From Linderina pennispora (Eukaryota; Kickxellomycota; Kickxellomycetes; Kickxellales; Kickxellaceae): DNA of 51,608 nucleotides. A program made the position numbers and the translations under genes. The stretch lies in contig NW_024468306.1 in the NCBI RefSeq assembly GCF_002104995.1, positions 1-51,608 of the forward strand. Reading direction: 5' to 3'. Position 1 is the stretch's first letter. Each line of letters opens with the position of its first letter. Below the pieces are notes generated by a model. It ran no database searches. It was not told the origin of the DNA and saw only the letters and a list, made by a program, of their open reading frames with translations. Below are positions 17,566 through 25,618 of this stretch, piece after piece.

Positions 17566-18870
17566 CTACATCCGCCTGATATAGGCATCGGCCTCTGACT
17601 GATTGGCTGGGTATCTCTGGTGCAGCAGTCTCAATCTGGCCTCCAGAACCATCGAATCCGAGTTGACCGCAGACTCGTCATCGCTGGGCTCCGGGAATGC
17701 GAGCTGGTACGCTGACTTCTTGGTCGACATCGTATCCAGCGACAGCACCTGAAGACCACTGTCACTAGAAGACTCTGTATCAATTTCCTGGCTTGGCTCG
17801 GCCCTGGCTTCCTTGTGCCGTGCCACCAGCGGATATTTCTTGGTTAGCTCCCTATTGACTTCTTTGATAACGCGAATGACTGAAGGATCGGTCACAAACA
17901 CCAGAAAGTTGGCCAGCACTGTGGCCGCGTGTCCAAACCACGCGAGCTTCTGCATATGGACGAATTTTGGAATTTCGCTCCTGTCCGTCAGCTGGATAGA
18001 GTACTGGATGTAGTAGTATGCGATATTGCAGCAGAACCAAGCCAGCGGCGCAATGGTATACATAGCGATACGCACCGCTGCATTGTAGACGTTGCGAGCT
18101 GCCCGCAGCCGCTGCTCCTCGTGCCACATCGTGGTCTTGCACTTGCTGGTCTTGCTGCTGGACAGGAATGCCTGGTTCTCGGCAGAGATCTTTTGCAGGC
18201 ATTTGTTGATCTCGCGCTGCTTCTGCAAAAGCGACAGGATAATGCGCGTGAATGTAATGACGTTGTAGAGCAAGCAGAGTGCCGGAGTCAGCATATAGGC
18301 ACACACCACAAACACCACAAACGAGGCTGTTCCTGGTTGGTATGGTTCGAATGCCGAGCAGTAGCCTTGTTTTGCAGCGATCCCCGTAAGCGTCGCCAAA
18401 TGAACCAGTGCTGCCAGAATCGGAACTAGGAAGTACAGATACTCGCAGTACTCGCGTGGAACCACCAGCCTGGGTCGCAAAAACATGATGTGCAGATTGA
18501 CGGCAATAGCCGTGGATGCGTAGACACCTGTGTATGTGACAAAGCCAGTGAAGAAATAATATGCCCGGCAGCCTGTGCTATTCCCTTTCACCACCTTGGT
18601 CAGCATGGTGAGGCCCAGGACGCAATCCATAAGCGCAATAAAGAAAATTAGACGTAGAGATGTACGGTTGACAAGAAAGCGGCGCCAGACGAAGACAGCG
18701 AGAAGGAAAATCACCATGACTGCGGCAAAGCCCGAAGCCAGGCCGTAGCCGAGGTGGAAGAGATAGTATTCATTCTTTACCTGCCCCATAGCTTCGGCAA
18801 GGATTTTGTCTGGATTGTCAGGCTCCAAGGATAATGCCCGCATCAAGAGCGTACTAGTAGATGAAGACAT
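17566..18870 (-). CDS. Seven-transmembrane receptor-like protein
   Basis: A 434-residue protein with an extracellular-type N-terminus of about 35 residues, seven hydrophobic helices between about residues 38 and 340, and a Ser-rich cytoplasmic tail with acidic clusters. Helix features resemble fungal GPCR-like (cAMP-receptor/secretin-like) proteins: polar residues in helix 2 (FFIALMDCVLGLTML), Cys in the first and second extracellular loops (CRAYYFF and GYCSAF, possible disulphide), and a large third cytoplasmic loop rich in Lys, Gln and Ser (LLQKQREINKCLQKIS). The ligand and G protein are unknown. The stop is 121 bp from that of the convergent EH-domain gene. Start 18870 is the first ATG and there is no sign of an intron. 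Confidence 0.7.
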   Translation of the reverse strand: MSSSTSTLLMRALSLEPDNPDKILAEAMGQVKNEYYLFHLGYGLASGFAAVMVIFLLAVFVWRRFLVNRTSLRLIFFIALMDCVLGLTMLTKVVKGNSTGCRAYYFFTGFVTYTGVYASTAIAVNLHIMFLRPRLVVPREYCEYLYFLVPILAALVHLATLTGIAAKQGYCSAFEPYQPGTASFVVFVVCAYMLTPALCLLYNVITFTRIILSLLQKQREINKCLQKISAENQAFLSSSKTSKCKTTMWHEEQRLRAARNVYNAAVRIAMYTIAPLAWFCCNIAYYYIQYSIQLTDRSEIPKFVHMQKLAWFGHAATVLANFLVFVTDPSVIRVIKEVNRELTKKYPLVARHKEARAEPSQEIDTESSSDSGLQVLSLDTMSTKKSAYQLAFPEPSDDESAVNSDSMVLEARLRLLHQRYPANQSEADAYIRRM

Positions 18871-20042
18871 TATAAGGAGCTAATATAGCAAGTATGGCGC
18901 TGTCTGATATAATAATAACAGCACGATGGGTGCAACATAAAAGAAAGGAAGGGAGATAAAAAAATACCATTGGCACAATATTTCAAGCACGATTGCCTCC
19001 GCAAGCAAAACCTTATATAATATTCAATGCGCAGTTGCTCAATGCAAATGGCATAGGTATTGGGACACCATCACCTCTTAATTCTATACAGACACAAGCA
19101 GGGAGATATACTCCATACAGTGAATTGTGCAAAAACAGCCAATCTGCAGTTTATTTGCAAATGCTCCAGGCTGTTGGTTGATTCCGACCAATGTCCAACG
19201 CTTAAAACCCCGAGTGGGAAGGAATATAAGTGCCTAGGAAATGAGCATGTCACTTGCAAAGAGAACCATCGATTATATTTTGAATGACAATAGTTTATCT
19301 GCGCTGAAAGGGATTGGAGTGATAGACACTATATAAATAAATTGTAATTCAGTAAGCGTGTCCTTGTGCAAATGGATCATCAGTCTCGCTCTGTCGTTAA
19401 GAAACTTCAGTCGCTTGTGCATTGTGACTTTATTGCAAATTCATACAATAATCATATTAATAGAAATATCATGCTACAAGCAGTTTGTGAACTAAGCGGA
19501 CACCGTGTGGAGAGCTGCTGTTGTCCGACAAGCCATTGTAATCTCTCAGCCATTAAAAATGAAGTGATTTTTTACTATACAAGCACGCGCTTATAGACGC
19601 TTTTGAATTGGCGATCGCTTCAGTCCTGATTTACATTGGAGTTCAGCTAAGCCAATGGCCATATCAAGATTCAACAAAATCCTTCAGCTGATACCGATAA
19701 CGACGTGCATACAAACACTCATGGAGGCATTTGGATGACTTGGATACGTGGTAATGCAGAAGAACCAACATTGTAAACAACTGTATAACCTATAGATATA
19801 TTGCTTTTCGAGCCAAGTCTGCAAATTGAAGTAAAACAATATCACAGATTGAAATGGCACATAATACTTATGACTACTAGAATTGCTCTGCTCACGATGC
19901 AAGCTCGGCTGCTAACCAGCATGAGTTGACATGTCGATAAGAGCATCACGGCAAACCGGTCATTTGAACGTGTCGGATGATTGTTGGTGCAATGGTGATC
20001 ATGGACATCTCCCATCTTGATGGCCTGCTCAGCGCAAGCGCT
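18871..20042. other. 1.2 kb gene-free, AT-rich interval
   Basis: This holds the promoter side of the 7TM gene and the flank of a degraded mobile-element gene. Open frames are short, without motifs and in low-GC sequence. I found no tRNA-like fold. Confidence 0.45.
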
Positions 20043-21476
20043 TCAGCGCTGGTTCGCTGCTGCTGCACACCTCTTGCGCGGCCTCTTTGTTGCCGGAGTG
20101 GTGCCAGAAGTATGGGCAGCAGTAGCTGTAGAACGACAGAACCGTTCAGGAATATCGCCTGAATCACAGAGTGACTGGAAAGTGAGTCTGAAGTTTAGAA
20201 CTGCTGCGAGGTCGCGGTTCAAGAGCCGAGACGAATAGGCTCGCCCGCATTGTGCCATGGTCCGCTTACATGACTCGCTTGTACAGCAGAGAAGGCCATG
20301 GCACTTCACAGTTGGGTTCTTCGATCTCTGGTAGGGCCGTGGGTTGGGAACATGCCGGAATGTCTGCTGCTGCCGCCGATGCACCAGCAAGTGAATCAGC
20401 TGCTACTGCTGTAGTTGCTGCAGTGGCCTCTGTTGCATCTGATGGCATCTTCGCTGCTTCACGTGCAGCCTTCTTGGCCAATTTTTCGCCCTTTTCTGCT
20501 GCTTTCCTTGCCTCTGTTGCTGCCCTCTTTGCTGCATTGATTTTGGTAACCTGCTCGCGTGTTTTCGAAACAAACACCTGCTTGATTATTTGTTTGTCTA
20601 AGCGCACATGGCCTGGGATCCATGATGTCCGCAGAGGCAAGCATTGGGGGAGAGACTTGCCAAGCTGCTCATTCTCGATAAGCTGGCATAGGCGAATGTA
20701 TGCACGCAGATGCTTAAGTGGATTTACCTTGGCATCATAGCACCGGGTGTCTTTGGCGAATCTGTACTTGGCATCATAGGCATTAAGGACTGGTGCCAGC
20801 TTGTTGTAGATTGCAAGCATCGGTGGGGTGAGCACACTGAGATCAGGGTGCCTAGAGCCAACTGCCTGGCGGAGCTTCGGTGCAGGTAAATAAATACACA
20901 CTTGACATGCATTATTGAACTCAGCCTTGGACACATTGCCCATTGTACTGTGCAGTGTGTTTTTGCGGCTGCGAATATCAATCAGTTTGGCCAGAATCCG
21001 CTGTAGGCAAGTGCCATAGTGCAACACAATGTTGTTCTTGTATGCTGTCATCAGCTCGGTATCCACGTATGTTGCTACTTGATTCATATCACGTACACCA
21101 TGTAGCTTTATATCGCCATTATGAAATAGATTATCATAAATATGATATCTAACTACATCACCGAAATCTGCCCTTGACAGTTCGGACCTGTCCATCCGGT
21201 TAACGAAATACTTGGCAGATATGGCCGTCTTTGCCCTAAGGCTGTGATAAATAAATAAATTGAACGAAAGAATCCCTTTTTCACAAATGTTGCAGGGTCA
21301 AAGGCATCCCCGTCAGCTAGCTGATGGAGTAGTATCCATCGTGCAAGCATGTATGTATGCTCTTTGATGATATTGACGCTGTGTACAAATTGCTCTAGGC
21401 GGGGCAACATAGAATCACGGAAGCCAATACCACCAAGTGATGTCTTTATGACAGTAGTGCTGCGGGTAATATTCAT
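20043..21476 (-). pseudogene. Decayed Fanzor/TnpB-like RNA-guided nuclease gene, core deleted
   Basis: Three minus-strand pieces in different frames. The N-terminal piece (21476 to about 21235, ..LPRLEQFVHSVN..YMLARWILLHQL..) continues after a frameshift as ..RAKTAISAKYFVN.. to ..SLPQCLPLRTSWIPGHVRL.., then an Ala/Lys-rich linker. The C-terminal piece (within 20043-20390) reads KCHGLLCCTSESC, then SSRLLNRDLAAVLNFR and GDIPERF. The last block resembles the zinc-ribbon plus RuvC-III motif (NRDxxAxxN) that ends Fanzor1 proteins of fungi, and the first blocks resemble their N-terminal part. The middle, which should carry the RuvC-I Asp and RuvC-II Glu, is absent, so nuclease activity is not expected. 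Family assignment is from remembered motifs, not a search. An alternative is a lineage-specific transposon ORF of the same superfamily. Confidence 0.6.
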
Positions 21477-22725
21477 TTGAGAAATTCAATAGGCAAGTAA
21501 GAAGAGAAATGATGCTGTTCAGTTTTGCTTTATTGCATATGCATAGCATTAAGAACTTTTTTTATTAATAATGATCTGGCTTGCATGGTTCTTGGGGCCC
21601 TTAGCACTGATACAGTCTCTTGAATCAGTCTATACAGACTGGGTCTATTGTGGCCCAAATACTACTGCCTACGCATGTTCTTAAGACAAATTAATTTATA
21701 AAATAAATATACAAATATTATATAAACCACTAGAAGATCTATATGGCCTTATTCAATAGGTACTCATAAATACATATCCTATGAGTATTGTATAGCTAGT
21801 GATGACTACCATAATGATGCTATAGAAGGTATTAGGCCAGCTGATAATGAGAGCAGCTCTTGTGCTGAACCAATGGAGAAATATAGTGGAGACATATAAC
21901 TACTATAATAAGAGCTTATTACCCTGGGTTTACTAATGAGGTCAGATACTATTTAAGATCAAAAGGAGTTTATAGAGCAAGTCACCTAAGCTTACTTTAA
22001 GGTTTAAAAGAGCATTATTTTTAATCAATTAAAAAGGTTCTAGTAGATAGTTAGATACTTTTGAACTATATAACCTTATATAGGAGGTTATGAAGAGTTA
22101 CTTCTCTACCTATAAATTATTTGAGCATACTATAACTACTAGTACTTTTAGTTAAAATAACTATTAAAATAACTATATTGAAAATAATTATGTAAATATA
22201 TAACTAACTTAAAATTTACTAAACCTTAAAAGTTAAAGAATAACTATGATAGGAAAAGAATCTATTTGCTCTAATTTTTATATAATACTATGACCTTATA
22301 TCAGGTATTCTAGGGACTAGCAACAGATTAGTAGGCACTAATATAAATAGGTATAAGGATTAGTGCCCTAGAAAGCTGAATTTTGTCCCCTATGGTCTAA
22401 AAATAATTGGGATATATCAGATCATTTTATATTCAATAGTGATAAATACCATTATAGGATCTATTTAAAAGCATAATATGATATTTGCCCTTAGATTATA
22501 TAGTATTTTTCAATACATTTTTTCACATATCCAAATTATTTACTATTGATAGAGCAGAGCAGATTTAGTGTAAGCCAAAGAATACTTAACTCATATCTGT
22601 GCACTTAGCACTTGTTAAAACAAGCAAACCCCCCATATCTCTTTATACTTCTCTATGCTCTCTGTGTGTAGACCGACTACTTCATCAAACCCCTATTTTA
22701 TTCTAATAAACAAGCAATATTAAAG
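21477..22725. other. AT-rich, CpG-free block, probable silenced repeat
   Basis: Strongly AT-rich DNA with no open frame of note. Scanning the plus strand I find no CG dinucleotide between about 21673 and 22673, while flanking DNA is CpG-containing. The end near 22620-22725 (CTCTTTATACTTCTC, then TCTCTGTGTGTAGACCGAC) looks like the leader of a retroelement that runs into a gag-like start codon at 22726. I infer a methylated, mutated repeat, but no coding remnant is readable in the AT-rich part. Confidence 0.6.
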
Positions 22726-22854
22726 ATGGCAACGATCGATGCCACTCCTATTATGACCGCCGGGCCTGTCGAAGCAGGTCATGGCAGAACATTCGAGGAC
22801 TCTCAGGGTCCAAGGCTTAATCGGACTCTAGTTCCGACGGTTCTGGGGCTTTAG
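22726..22854 (+). pseudogene. Gag-like N-terminal remnant running into tRNA-Phe
   Basis: An ATG after an A-rich leader opens a frame of 42 codons (MATIDATPIMTAGPVEAG..) that continues to the 5' base of tRNA-Phe and stops inside it. Its composition and leader resemble the start of an LTR-retroelement gag. The last 45 bp before the tRNA are related to the matching flank of the left arm (about 80% identical), so that part may simply be tRNA upstream DNA. No capsid or zinc-knuckle sequence is present. Confidence 0.35.
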
Positions 22855-22917
22855 CTCATCTGGGAGAGCGTATGACTGAAGTTCATAAGGCACCGTGTTC
22901 GATCCACGGAAGCCCCA
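22845..22917 (+). tRNA. tRNA-Phe(GAA), right copy
   Basis: The same 73-nt sequence as the minus-strand gene at 4223-4295, now on the plus strand. The anticodon loop is CTGAAGT, acceptor GGGGCTT/AAGCCCC, and a TTTTT terminator lies at 22929-22933. Confidence 0.96.
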
Positions 22918-23680
22918 CTACGGATCTATTTTTGCTCGCCAGATCGCCATACTCTTTTGGATCGTCCCAGTGCTCGACACACTGGTTTGCCCCAACCGGT
23001 GGTGCTCATCCATGCCACGTTTGCTTTTTGCTCAGTCGATTGTGCATGCATATTGTTGTCATTCGGGCAACCCCATGCCATGTCCCTCAGAGGACCAAGA
23101 GCCAGCAATCGTATTGGTTGCCTCTTGCCGCTTCGGGCACTGGCAGTACATATTTATGTGCATTAACTCGCTGTCGCTTGTCCGATAAGATATGTTTGGC
23201 AAGCCATTCGTCTGCTGGATACTGAATCTATGTACAGGCAAGCAGAAAAGACCAGTCGAATATCTACCTTTGCTGCAAGTGCTTTCAAGTGAGAAACATA
23301 GGGAATGGGGAATAGGGAACCGCACTGGGTGTTTGACGATGGTCCTGTCATTTAGCAACAGGCCGCTGTGATATTTATACCTGATGAGCAGGGCCTAGCA
23401 GAGCCATTTTTCTGGATAATAAAACACACAGATCCAAATATCTGGACAATACCACAATGAAATGTCGAAATTGATTGGAAGCCATTGCCGCCAAACACCT
23501 TACTTCTAAGCAAAGCCTTCCTTCTACTGCTTGTGCACATGGCGCATAACGATGCATCTGAGAAATGGACGGTGTGGTTAACAAAATAGCTGCAAGGCTG
23601 GAAAGCGATGTTTATAAATGGGCATTGAAAACTGATGGAGGTGGAATGGAGGGGACATTTACATATGCACATGTTCACCA
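22918..23680. other. Non-coding spacer between tRNA-Phe and fungalysin (right arm)
   Basis: Mirror of 3460-4222 with very few substitutions (for example one base inside a run near 23272). No gene is recognised. Confidence 0.6.
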
Positions 23681-25618
23681 CTAGCACCCATCAGGAACAC
23701 TGCTGTCATCGGTATGCCTGCCCCATCCACCACCTGGTGCATTGACACCAAGTCCGCGCTTGGCAAATGCACCCCAGATCTCGCACCTGTTCTTGCCACC
23801 AGTCAGATTCTGCTCGGCCTGAATTATGGCATTGCGTGCATCGATAAACGTTGGGTTGCACGGCTGCAGCTTCATCCCGTCAAGCAGGATCTGGAGCATG
23901 ATGGAGTTGCCCTTGGTCAGGTCGTGGGCAAAGATGTCATCGGCAAAGCCATTCTTGTCAATCAGCGCCCACATCACTTCATACAGAATTTCAGCCCACA
24001 CCTCGCCGATGGCATGCACTTCCTGGTAGTCCATGCGGTCGAGGTAGCTGTATGTTGATGGGTTGGTGTCCATGCTGGTTGAGTACGGATAGTTGCGAAT
24101 CCCCTTGGTGTACACATAGTGGCCCAGCACGAGGTCAGCGTCATGTGTATCAGTGCTCTTGAGGCGCAGGATAGTCGACACTGCATCGCTCCACCCCTCG
24201 CCCATGCCACCCGACTCGCCATCATTCAGGCAGTCGGTATTGGCGGGCCCACCTGTCAGCCGGTTCGAGATTCCATGGGTGAACTCGTGTGCTACAATGT
24301 CCTGCTCAAAGTCGCCGTCGCGGTTTGGCATAGTCTGGGTCCATGTATACATACGCATGCGCGGACGCTGGCCATCGGGAGGCGTGGCAAAGTTGGCATT
24401 GTTGGTGCCAGAGCCGTCCTGGGCATTGGCAATGACGCCATCCCCGCCAACCCCTCTGCCGCTAAAGTTCTCATCCTGGAAGTTGCCTGCAGCCTCATCA
24501 AAGCCGTAGATGTAGGACAGATCGTGCATGATGTTGTTGGTATAGAACAGCTGCACAATAGCTGCGTCAATGTACGACTCTGGTGGCTGCGACAAGTTGA
24601 GGGGAAAATCGAACACATTGCCGGGGCCAGCTTTCGGGCGGTGGTTTGTCTGCCATGTCGAGCCACCGGTTGGGTTGGACTGTGCCCAGACATTGTTGCC
24701 GTAGGTCGAGCCCTTGGTGACCCAGCCCTTTGGACTGGCATCCTTGCTTGCCGGGTCAGCAACCAGTGTGTGCTTGCCATCTTCAGGAGACAGCACATCC
24801 TTGGCATAGACATTGTATGATTCAGACTGCGAGTACCAGTCGTAGAGGGCGAGCACATTGTGCGAAGAGGTGTCGATGCTTGCAGTCCACCAGTGGTCCT
24901 GCTGCTCGGCATTGACACGCCAGACGCTGGATACTGAGCCGTCAGCATTCTGCAAGAGAGCAGAGGTAATACGGGCAGTTCCATCGATGGCAAAGTGTGC
25001 AGGCAAGTTCGTGACAGTGAGCCCAGACGATGAGTCAAAGCTGGTTGCCGCCATGCCACCAAGGTCAGTGTCGGCAAGTGGTGCTTGGATGTGGTTGGCC
25101 AAAGCAAGAAGGGCCGCTCTGGCAGAGTCTGTTGAGAGAGCAGCTGATGAAAAGTCGGCATTGTTGCTAGCCAGAGGCCCATGAGTAAATGAATGGCCAG
25201 ACGAAATGACACGTCCATTCTTGTCAATGTTGACGTTTGCTACGGCATTGGTGACATGCAGGCCATCGTGGGTCTGGACCATGTAGACATGTGTTAGCCC
25301 TGTAGCAGTGTCGGTGTATGCATCGGTGATGTGGATGCTGTCCAGTTGGATGCCATGCTTCTGGTGCAGATAAGTGGCAGCAATCGACATGCTCTGCAGC
25401 AACAAGGGGTCGCTGTGGGCAAGCGACGAGGAAAAGGCGGTAGGGCTTGCAATGGGGTTCAGAGACAGAGGAGTCTCGTAGACAGTGAATGGCTGTCTGT
25501 GGCTGAGAGCAGGGCTGAACGGCTTGGCTGGCGTGGAGAGCTGTCGCTGCTGTGGCTGGGAGATAAGCGCACAGGACAGAGCAGCAAAGTAAATGGTAAA
25601 TACGAGTGGTTGGAGCAT
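23681..25618 (-). CDS. Fungalysin, secreted M36 zinc metallopeptidase (right copy)
   Basis: A 645-residue paralogue of the gene at 1522-3459, inverted. Signal peptide, propeptide, HEFTH and GMGEGWSD are all intact, so this copy should also be active. The start at 25618 is chosen as in the other copy because it opens a signal peptide. Protein differences from the left copy are Ser to Phe in the signal peptide, Thr to Ala shortly after it, and Pro to His in the propeptide; the remaining C-terminal residues are identical. The two promoters share everything back to and beyond tRNA-Ser, apart from a homopolymer of 12 rather than 9 G/C. Confidence 0.93.
   Translation of the reverse strand: MLQPLVFTIYFAALSCALISQPQQRQLSTPAKPFSPALSHRQPFTVYETPLSLNPIASPTAFSSSLAHSDPLLLQSMSIAATYLHQKHGIQLDSIHITDAYTDTATGLTHVYMVQTHDGLHVTNAVANVNIDKNGRVISSGHSFTHGPLASNNADFSSAALSTDSARAALLALANHIQAPLADTDLGGMAATSFDSSSGLTVTNLPAHFAIDGTARITSALLQNADGSVSSVWRVNAEQQDHWWTASIDTSSHNVLALYDWYSQSESYNVYAKDVLSPEDGKHTLVADPASKDASPKGWVTKGSTYGNNVWAQSNPTGGSTWQTNHRPKAGPGNVFDFPLNLSQPPESYIDAAIVQLFYTNNIMHDLSYIYGFDEAAGNFQDENFSGRGVGGDGVIANAQDGSGTNNANFATPPDGQRPRMRMYTWTQTMPNRDGDFEQDIVAHEFTHGISNRLTGGPANTDCLNDGESGGMGEGWSDAVSTILRLKSTDTHDADLVLGHYVYTKGIRNYPYSTSMDTNPSTYSYLDRMDYQEVHAIGEVWAEILYEVMWALIDKNGFADDIFAHDLTKGNSIMLQILLDGMKLQPCNPTFIDARNAIIQAEQNLTGGKNRCEIWGAFAKRGLGVNAPGGGWGRHTDDSSVPDGC

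Follow-up and report, generated by a model that had tools for sequence, protein, structure and literature searches.

The window, a 51.6-kb stretch of Linderina pennispora DNA (contig C177) that was analyzed as a whole, carries on its minus strand, at 21476-20043, a Fanzor1 gene without its middle. The initial annotation had described a Fanzor/TnpB-like gene reduced to its ends, with broken frames and no RuvC-I/II core, and had offered either a dead Fanzor-type nuclease or a non-autonomous derivative as its nature. As a reference we used P0001, an 870-residue full-length relative from the same genome, translated from locus L034. A tblastn search of the whole window with P0001 returned four pieces, all of them on the minus strand:

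21246..21485, minus strand, frame -1: Fanzor1 residues 1-80, with the start codon at 21476-21474 and 96% identity to P0001
20353..21297, minus strand, frame -3: Fanzor1 residues 64-379, 88% identical to P0001
20052..20366, minus strand, frame -1: Fanzor1 residues 742-846, the second half of the zinc ribbon and NRDLAAVLNF (RuvC-III)
20002..20082, minus strand, frame -3: Fanzor1 C-terminal residues 844-870, from the P0001 tblastn search

By tblastn the second piece covers residues 64-351 (21297-20437), and blastp extends it to residue 379 in the same frame, which is open over 343 codons; in the alignment to Parasitella Fanzor1, residues 64-379 make up the REC lobe and part of WED. Residues 742-846 are not in frame with the N-terminal part. 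For residues ~380-741, which hold the RuvC-I DPG, the RuvC-II glutamate, and the first zinc-ribbon CxxC, tblastn at E ≤ 1e-3 found no match in the whole window. Thus the first zinc pair and two catalytic residues, those of RuvC-I and RuvC-II, are deleted, and NRD is kept in another frame. The frame is broken twice, at the deletion joint and at a second small frameshift near 21246-21297. The annotation was therefore right that N-terminal blocks and a zinc-ribbon/NRDLAAVLN block persist in changing frames around a missing core, but "reduced to its ends" understates what is left, since the N-terminal part amounts to ~44% of the protein and is no stub.

Both parts could be placed among the Fanzors by comparison with solved structures. 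In phmmer searches, the middle frame matched the Fanzor1 proteins of Parasitella parasitica (E 1.6e-16), Guillardia (1.8e-4), and Spizellomyces (1.5e-3), and the C-terminal frame matched those of Parasitella (5.4e-12) and Spizellomyces (8.1e-7). Of the Fanzor/TnpB search that the annotation had proposed, this side succeeded, but Pfam gave no Fanzor/TnpB match for the three window Fanzor frames at E ≤ 10. Full-length copies in the same genome, which it had also suggested looking for, do exist, P0001 among them. This protein aligns in collinear segments over most of its length with the Fanzor1 proteins of Parasitella (1.1e-82) and Spizellomyces (2.3e-31), and it carries CVFIDPG at residue 517, IDEFRTSSMCPFC at 724-736, a glutamate six residues before CPFC, VKCHG at 761 with CTSESC after it, and NRD at 791. 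The features by which Fanzor1 is recognized in the available text of two earlier papers are a RuvC-I DPG, an alternative glutamate six residues ahead of the first CxxC, a C4 zinc ribbon, and RD (PMC10711439, PMC3627910); P0001 shows each of them together with the overall similarity. In Pfam it is matched weakly by PF07282 (E 0.11), and among the 7,994 candidates sharing most words with it that were scored in the protein collection, no relative was found at E ≤ 1e-3.

The element that holds the Fanzor pieces extends on both sides past the annotated interval, 20043 to 21476, from about 22093 to 19877. To delimit it, 20 copies were fetched with their flanks; they were picked as the best matches to the window protein and are thus biased toward well-preserved copies. 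L033, which is cut by a contig end, was omitted from the end-to-end and selection analyses. The alignment of the element ends gave the following features:

19877..22093, minus strand: Helitron copy with an internal deletion, 2.2 kb, its ends aligned between the fetched copies and the window
22074..22093, minus strand: 5' terminus, a mutated TCTTTACCTATATATAAG, from the alignment of ends
19890..19904, minus strand: 3' subterminal Helitron hairpin GCUUGC-AUC-GUGAGC, 9 nt before CTAG, read from the sequence
19877..19880, minus strand: 3' terminal CTAG, with host TA next to it at 19876-19875

The 5' end at 22093 is heavily mutated and approximate by a few bases. Across the family, similarity stops sharply at TCTTTACCTATATATAAG on the 5' side and at GCTCGCATCGCGAGC-AGAGTATTT-CTAG on the 3' side. 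Helitrons start with 5' TC and end with 3' CTRR, and most of the aligned copies run from TCTTTACC to CTAG; the exceptions are L031, which ends in CTGG, L021, which is truncated at the 5' end, and L022, whose left end is rearranged and includes an inverted terminus. The family 3' hairpin has a 6-bp stem nine bases before CTAG, and equally stable structures arose in 21 of 500 shuffles. No 5' hairpin was found in the family (equally stable shuffles, 319/500), and the longest inverted match between the family ends was under 6 bases. Terminal repeats, which the annotation had proposed to look for, are hence absent from the aligned ends, as is expected for a Helitron. Helitron2 or Helentron was rejected as the carrier type, the family having neither a 5' hairpin nor asymmetric terminal inverted repeats.

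The insertion sites point the same way. The 3' end GAGCAGAGNNNTTCTAG is present in 138 exact copies genome-wide; the next base is T in 137 of them and the next two are TA in 135, whereas the probability of A after T in the flanks is 0.18. An 18-base 3' pattern with one mismatch allowed gave 198 matches, against 2 for the reversed control. On the other side, 12 of 14 copies have A just before the 5' end; the window copy, heavily mutated in this stretch, does not. When the flanks of 14 copies were joined, two unoccupied sites were recovered (L023 and L026), and both read A^TA with nothing duplicated or lost. The A at position +2 is missing from one of the 20 copies, L026, and the empty site of L026 has A there. 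A TA target duplication was rejected, since only 7 of 14 copies have TA as the last two bases of the left flank and neither empty site shows a duplication. The ends, the A^T target, and the lack of target duplication identify the carrier as a canonical Helitron of the Helitron1 type. Full-length elements measure ~3.3-3.4 kb, and the class to which the window copy belongs measures ~2.0-2.2 kb. Five copies (L026, L031, L032, L036, and L037) carry tandem TCTTTA-type repeats or a duplicated terminus ahead of the 5' end, as if the element start had been replicated more than once.

The difference between the two length classes lies at a single joint, which was defined by alignment with 10 full-length copies:

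20361..20367, minus strand: deletion joint with the 7-bp microhomology GCAGACA

About 1.1-1.2 kb is lost here, including RuvC-I, RuvC-II, and the first CxxC. GCAGACA stands at both breakpoints, beside GCA repeats; from the breakpoint sequences, we rejected an origin of the joint by splicing. The same segment is missing from 10 of the 20 aligned copies (the window and nine of the 19 fetched), and the upstream edge of the deletion varies: L026 has one form, L031, L039, and L040 another, and the rest a third, from which L023 and L024 deviate slightly. A 161-base query spanning the joint matched in whole at 28 or more places, the window included, among 41 matches listed; 28 is a lower bound, as the best 40 of 264 candidates were scored. 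By itself, the joint shifts the zinc ribbon out of frame, and it does likewise in the relatives that carry it.

Whether the window copy arrived short, or inserted at full length and lost its core later in place, is a close question, and we put the second course at slightly under even odds. Its evidence comes from sites represented on two contigs. Three of the 14 sites tested have the same insertion at another length on a second contig: 3347 versus 1675 bp at the L037 site, 3389 versus 1174 bp at the L032 site, and 2241 versus 1547 bp at the L024 site; at the L034 site both contigs have 3336 bp. The 1675-bp version at the L037 site, which has matching flanks, carries the joint, the reading of this partner being based on coordinates and match lengths. 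A full-length and a gutted element at one site would mean that the deletion arises, or is copied in, at occupied sites and is not only inherited through transposition. However, transposition of an already short element would produce the structure in the window just as well, the joint is present in both L024 versions, and gene conversion by another short copy offers a third route. In AU tests of a single origin for the short class, p was 0.038 for the 5' tree and 0.255 for the 3' tree, so a single origin is neither shown nor firmly excluded.

We examined selection over 346 codons of the N-terminal frame in 10 short and 10 full copies, with an expected N share of 0.714 taken from the mutation spectrum of the 5' non-coding region. 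Private substitutions were at N 103 and S 39 in the short copies (omega 1.06) and N 33 and S 13 in the full ones (1.02), whereas shared variants were at N 59 and S 60 (omega 0.39, p 7e-7). Neutral private changes beside constrained shared ones indicate that the masters were under selection in the N-terminal frame, that inserted copies decay, and that the window copy is, by this measure, dead. Over the whole C-terminal Fanzor frame, shared variants showed no constraint (N 42, S 16, omega 1.06), and in its zinc-ribbon part (N 5, S 5) the constraint was non-significant (p 0.18).

The N-terminal frame also shows constraint on the variants that only short copies share (N 10, S 15, omega 0.27, p 0.0013), in keeping with short copies having arisen repeatedly from masters under constraint. 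The same figures could come from a RuvC-less lineage that makes a selected protein of ~400 residues, comprising the REC lobe and part of WED, which might, for instance, regulate the intact Fanzor or the Helitron. Such a lineage would explain why short-only variants in the zinc ribbon, which is out of frame there, stand at N 4, S 1, with N 1, S 4 for those in full copies only or in both sets, and why 4 of the 10 short copies (L022, L026, L039, and L040) keep N-terminal open frames of 365-424 codons. We nevertheless consider it very improbable. The zinc-ribbon counts are few and far too small, constraint is equally expected where short copies repeatedly arise from constrained full-length masters, and repeated origin is what the L037 site and the 5' tree suggest, though not the 3' tree. 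Private changes are neutral, the window's own N-terminal frame is broken, and the deletion takes away P0001 residues 405-445, which align with 810-853 of Parasitella, just before RuvC, and were taken for the last WED strands.

A TldR-like regulator keeps the whole fold and loses the catalytic residues alone, under selection. The window copy was rejected as a nuclease-dead regulator of this kind: ~360 residues are deleted, the window frame is broken, and private changes are neutral. The alternative of an intact gene whose middle is missed, through an intron (as the annotation had considered, and for which the many exons of some Fanzor1 genes elsewhere speak; PMC3627910, in part) or through an assembly gap, is already refuted within the assembly, because P0001 finds no middle piece in the window, the relatives are intronless open frames, and the same joint recurs across the genome.

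Both natures offered by the annotation thus apply. Two catalytic residues and the reading frames are gone from the window copy, as in a dead nuclease, and the copy lies between Helitron ends with a joint shared by many relatives, as in a non-autonomous derivative. Judged from its sequence, it is a derivative of a Fanzor1 gene rather than a Fanzor nuclease.

The genome also holds a RepHel partner for the family. Helitron_like_N (PF14214) gave 13 matches at 7 loci, 12 of them within six RepHel loci, four of which were compared and are 93-97% similar. Downstream of all six, on the same strand, is a CTAG/TCTTTACC joint or a close variant, in which the 3' end of the RepHel element meets the Fanzor 5' terminus head to tail. 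The distance from RepHel to the joint is 3.0 kb in four loci and 1 kb and 16 kb in the others (16 kb on C212), and at L029 the RepHel frames extend up to the joint. With up to two mismatches, the RepHel 3' end GCAAGCATGAGACTGCTAG occurs eight times in the genome, each time followed by the Fanzor 5' terminus. A Fanzor N-terminal match directly follows five of these junctions; at two others (C2 and C157:1114975) none was found within 4 kb, and the remaining one (C171) lies 1.5 kb from a contig end. An unmutated 45-base Fanzor 5' terminus is also found 1.7-1.8 kb upstream of the RepHel genes at four or more of the six loci, a lower bound from scoring the best 40 of 146 candidates, the RepHel 5' ends being placed from coordinates and match lengths. 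Two composites, L029 and L038, show 98.8% identity across a 1186-base stretch that contains the joint, and their right flanks differ. Most simply, RepHel and Fanzor units would have a left end in common and travel alone or together. CTAG/TC joints are known from Helitron circles (PMC4778049, in the portion available). At C68:198243-198650 in the same genome (G000), a different Helitron Rep match is embedded in a 1989-codon open frame and may mark an intact autonomous Helitron from another family.

Within the 26.17 Mb searched (222 contigs), the longest frame of the window has 121 protein matches, 14 of them in open frames of 798-894 codons, and a 238-residue RuvC piece is matched over its whole length at no fewer than ~50 places. 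The copy has more than 100 relatives in the genome, some whole and many gutted at the same spot. Thirty-five of the 121 matches end near query residue 219; a further deletion class was rejected as the cause, since the five copies that were read (L041-L045) are one base short in a C run and change frame. The loss of one base from this run of 7 (one T allowed) splits the Fanzor frame. Other aligned copies keep the run at 7 or 10, with the position of the T varying, and the split copies are scattered over different branches of the N-terminal tree; a mutational hot spot, conversion, and a frameshift site are alternatives. L028 and L044 are the same insertion on two contigs with flanks 93% alike, and further such pairs, those of the L034 and L037 sites among them, suggest two haplotypes or a duplication.

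In the window, an M36 fungalysin gene, recognized by Pfam, neighbors the locus, and seven tRNA genes are spread over the 51.6 kb (1138-47228), including two for tRNA-Phe and two for tRNA-Ser(cga). Over the first ~400 bases of the element, differences per 100 bases number 30, 22, 19, and 11 and then fall to 2, 2, and 0. They are mostly C-to-T changes, at CpA (28/87) and CpG (22/30) and rarely at CpC (4/51) or CpT (2/74). This gradient (21500-22700) adjoins an AT-rich repeat and has the look of repeat-induced point mutation, or of methylation decay, that spread from it. The AT-rich block (22094-22700) has diverged partial copies elsewhere in the genome, 73-89% identical, and is probably an old mutated transposon beside the Helitron.

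The annotation had further proposed that an omega-RNA-like region might survive downstream of the gene. One stretch could be such a region:

19877..20001, minus strand: non-coding 3' region of 125 nt, possible omega RNA scaffold, with few shared variants in the family

This proposal stood in part. Between the last codon and CTAG lie 125 non-coding nucleotides in which shared variants are scarce: the last 142 nt of the family hold 11 shared and 39 private variants, whereas the 5' non-coding region holds 93 shared and 129 private ones (Fisher p 0.0098). With the terminal 46 bases removed, the difference weakens (6 shared, 19 private, p 0.09). The scarcity would suit an omega RNA in addition to the Helitron end and is no proof of one. 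But fold stability at the 3' end is ordinary (z 1.10, -0.08, 0.49, and 0.15), and Rfam found nothing in 18000-25000 beyond a tRNA at 22845. An omega RNA in the 3' region of the window copy is thus a prediction only, and the copy, which yields no functional Fanzor, could at most donate a guide RNA, through its 3' end, to a Fanzor from intact copies, a role already suggested for the "ghost" loci of Spizellomyces.

It has been proposed that Fanzor might aid HUH transposons such as Helitrons, as TnpB aids IS200/IS605 (Saito et al., PMC10432273), and PMC12477157 also names both Fanzor and Helitron; for PMC10432273 and the papers below, our comparisons draw on the portions available. The nearest precedents are CRe-1, CRe-2, and CRe-3 of Chlamydomonas reinhardtii (Bao and Jurka 2013, PMC3627910). 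There, too, Fanzor1 is carried by abundant non-autonomous Helitrons, whose copies show internal deletions and 5' truncations and keep their 3' ends intact. Those elements are Helitron2, insert after TTTT, often have target duplications, and contain multi-exon genes, whereas the family described here has Helitron1-type ends (one 3' hairpin and CTAG), an A^TA target with no duplication at two empty sites, an intronless gene, and a RepHel partner placed head to tail. Fanzor1 in Helitrons is itself known, from the Chlamydomonas Helitron2 elements; against the papers compared here, its canonical-Helitron, RepHel-linked form is new. The portions available of PMC3627910, PMC10432273, and PMC10711439 mention no fungal Fanzor-Helitron, with the subscription literature lying largely outside the search.

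Spu-1 of Spizellomyces punctatus (Saito et al. 2023, PMC10432273) likewise combines an intact Fanzor1 with many protein-less copies that keep the right end, and ghost omega RNAs of Spizellomyces functioned with SpuFz1 in human cells (PMC10432273). No transposase could be found for Spu-1, which has inverted repeats, in contrast to the Helitron carrier seen here, whose gutted copies still have the start and the end of the coding region. Parasitella parasitica Fanzor1 (PDB 9cf0; PMC11423790), the closest solved protein to P0001, aligns with it at the DPG and IDEFRTSS motifs and uses an ATN TAM and a 75-nt omega RNA; the window copy differs from it in lacking the RuvC core. This TAM is compatible with the ATA at the empty sites (PMC11423790). 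Joints of the CTAG/TC type can form by precise joining of 5' TC to 3' CTAG in circles, by bypass of the 3' end, or by tandem insertion (PMC4778049, PMC5148889). Similar joint routes apply to Helraiser, a bat Helitron (PMC4778049), and to the composite and tandem Helitrons of Fusarium and relatives (PMC5148889), with no Fanzor described in the available text on either.

We favor, with a probability of roughly 0.88, reading the locus as the fossil of a canonical Helitron that carries a Fanzor1 gene. RepHel would copy the elements by rolling circle, acting on Fanzor-only units in trans. The core (residues ~380-741) was lost by deletion between microhomologous GCA-rich stretches, and this RuvC deletion may repeatedly arise in place or spread by gene conversion, as is suggested by the L037 site, full length on one contig and gutted on another.

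A further step, which we regard as unlikely, is that Helitron and Fanzor form one homing unit with the gutted copies as guide donors. RepHel would insert the element at A^TA, so that an empty allele would present ATA followed by the right flank. Because the TAM of the Parasitella protein is ATN, A^TA would offer a suitable TAM when empty and lose it at the occupied right junction, which reads GTA and would be spared; the right flank would match the guide sequence of the right-end omega RNA. With nuclease from intact copies and guides from gutted ones such as that of the window, Fanzor would cut empty alleles and repair would copy the Helitron in. Cutting and repair between copies could also yield the recurrent RuvC deletions.

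Taken alone, the window copy is an ordinary dead element. Its family bears on a wider proposal, for which the discussion of PMC10432273, in the portion available, names no system where Fanzor and Helitron can both be followed. Here, one genome holds apparently intact and gutted Fanzor genes and a RepHel linked to them; the element ends are precise, some sites are filled on one contig and empty on another, and the A^TA target fits a known Fanzor TAM, so that the proposal would be testable in this genome.
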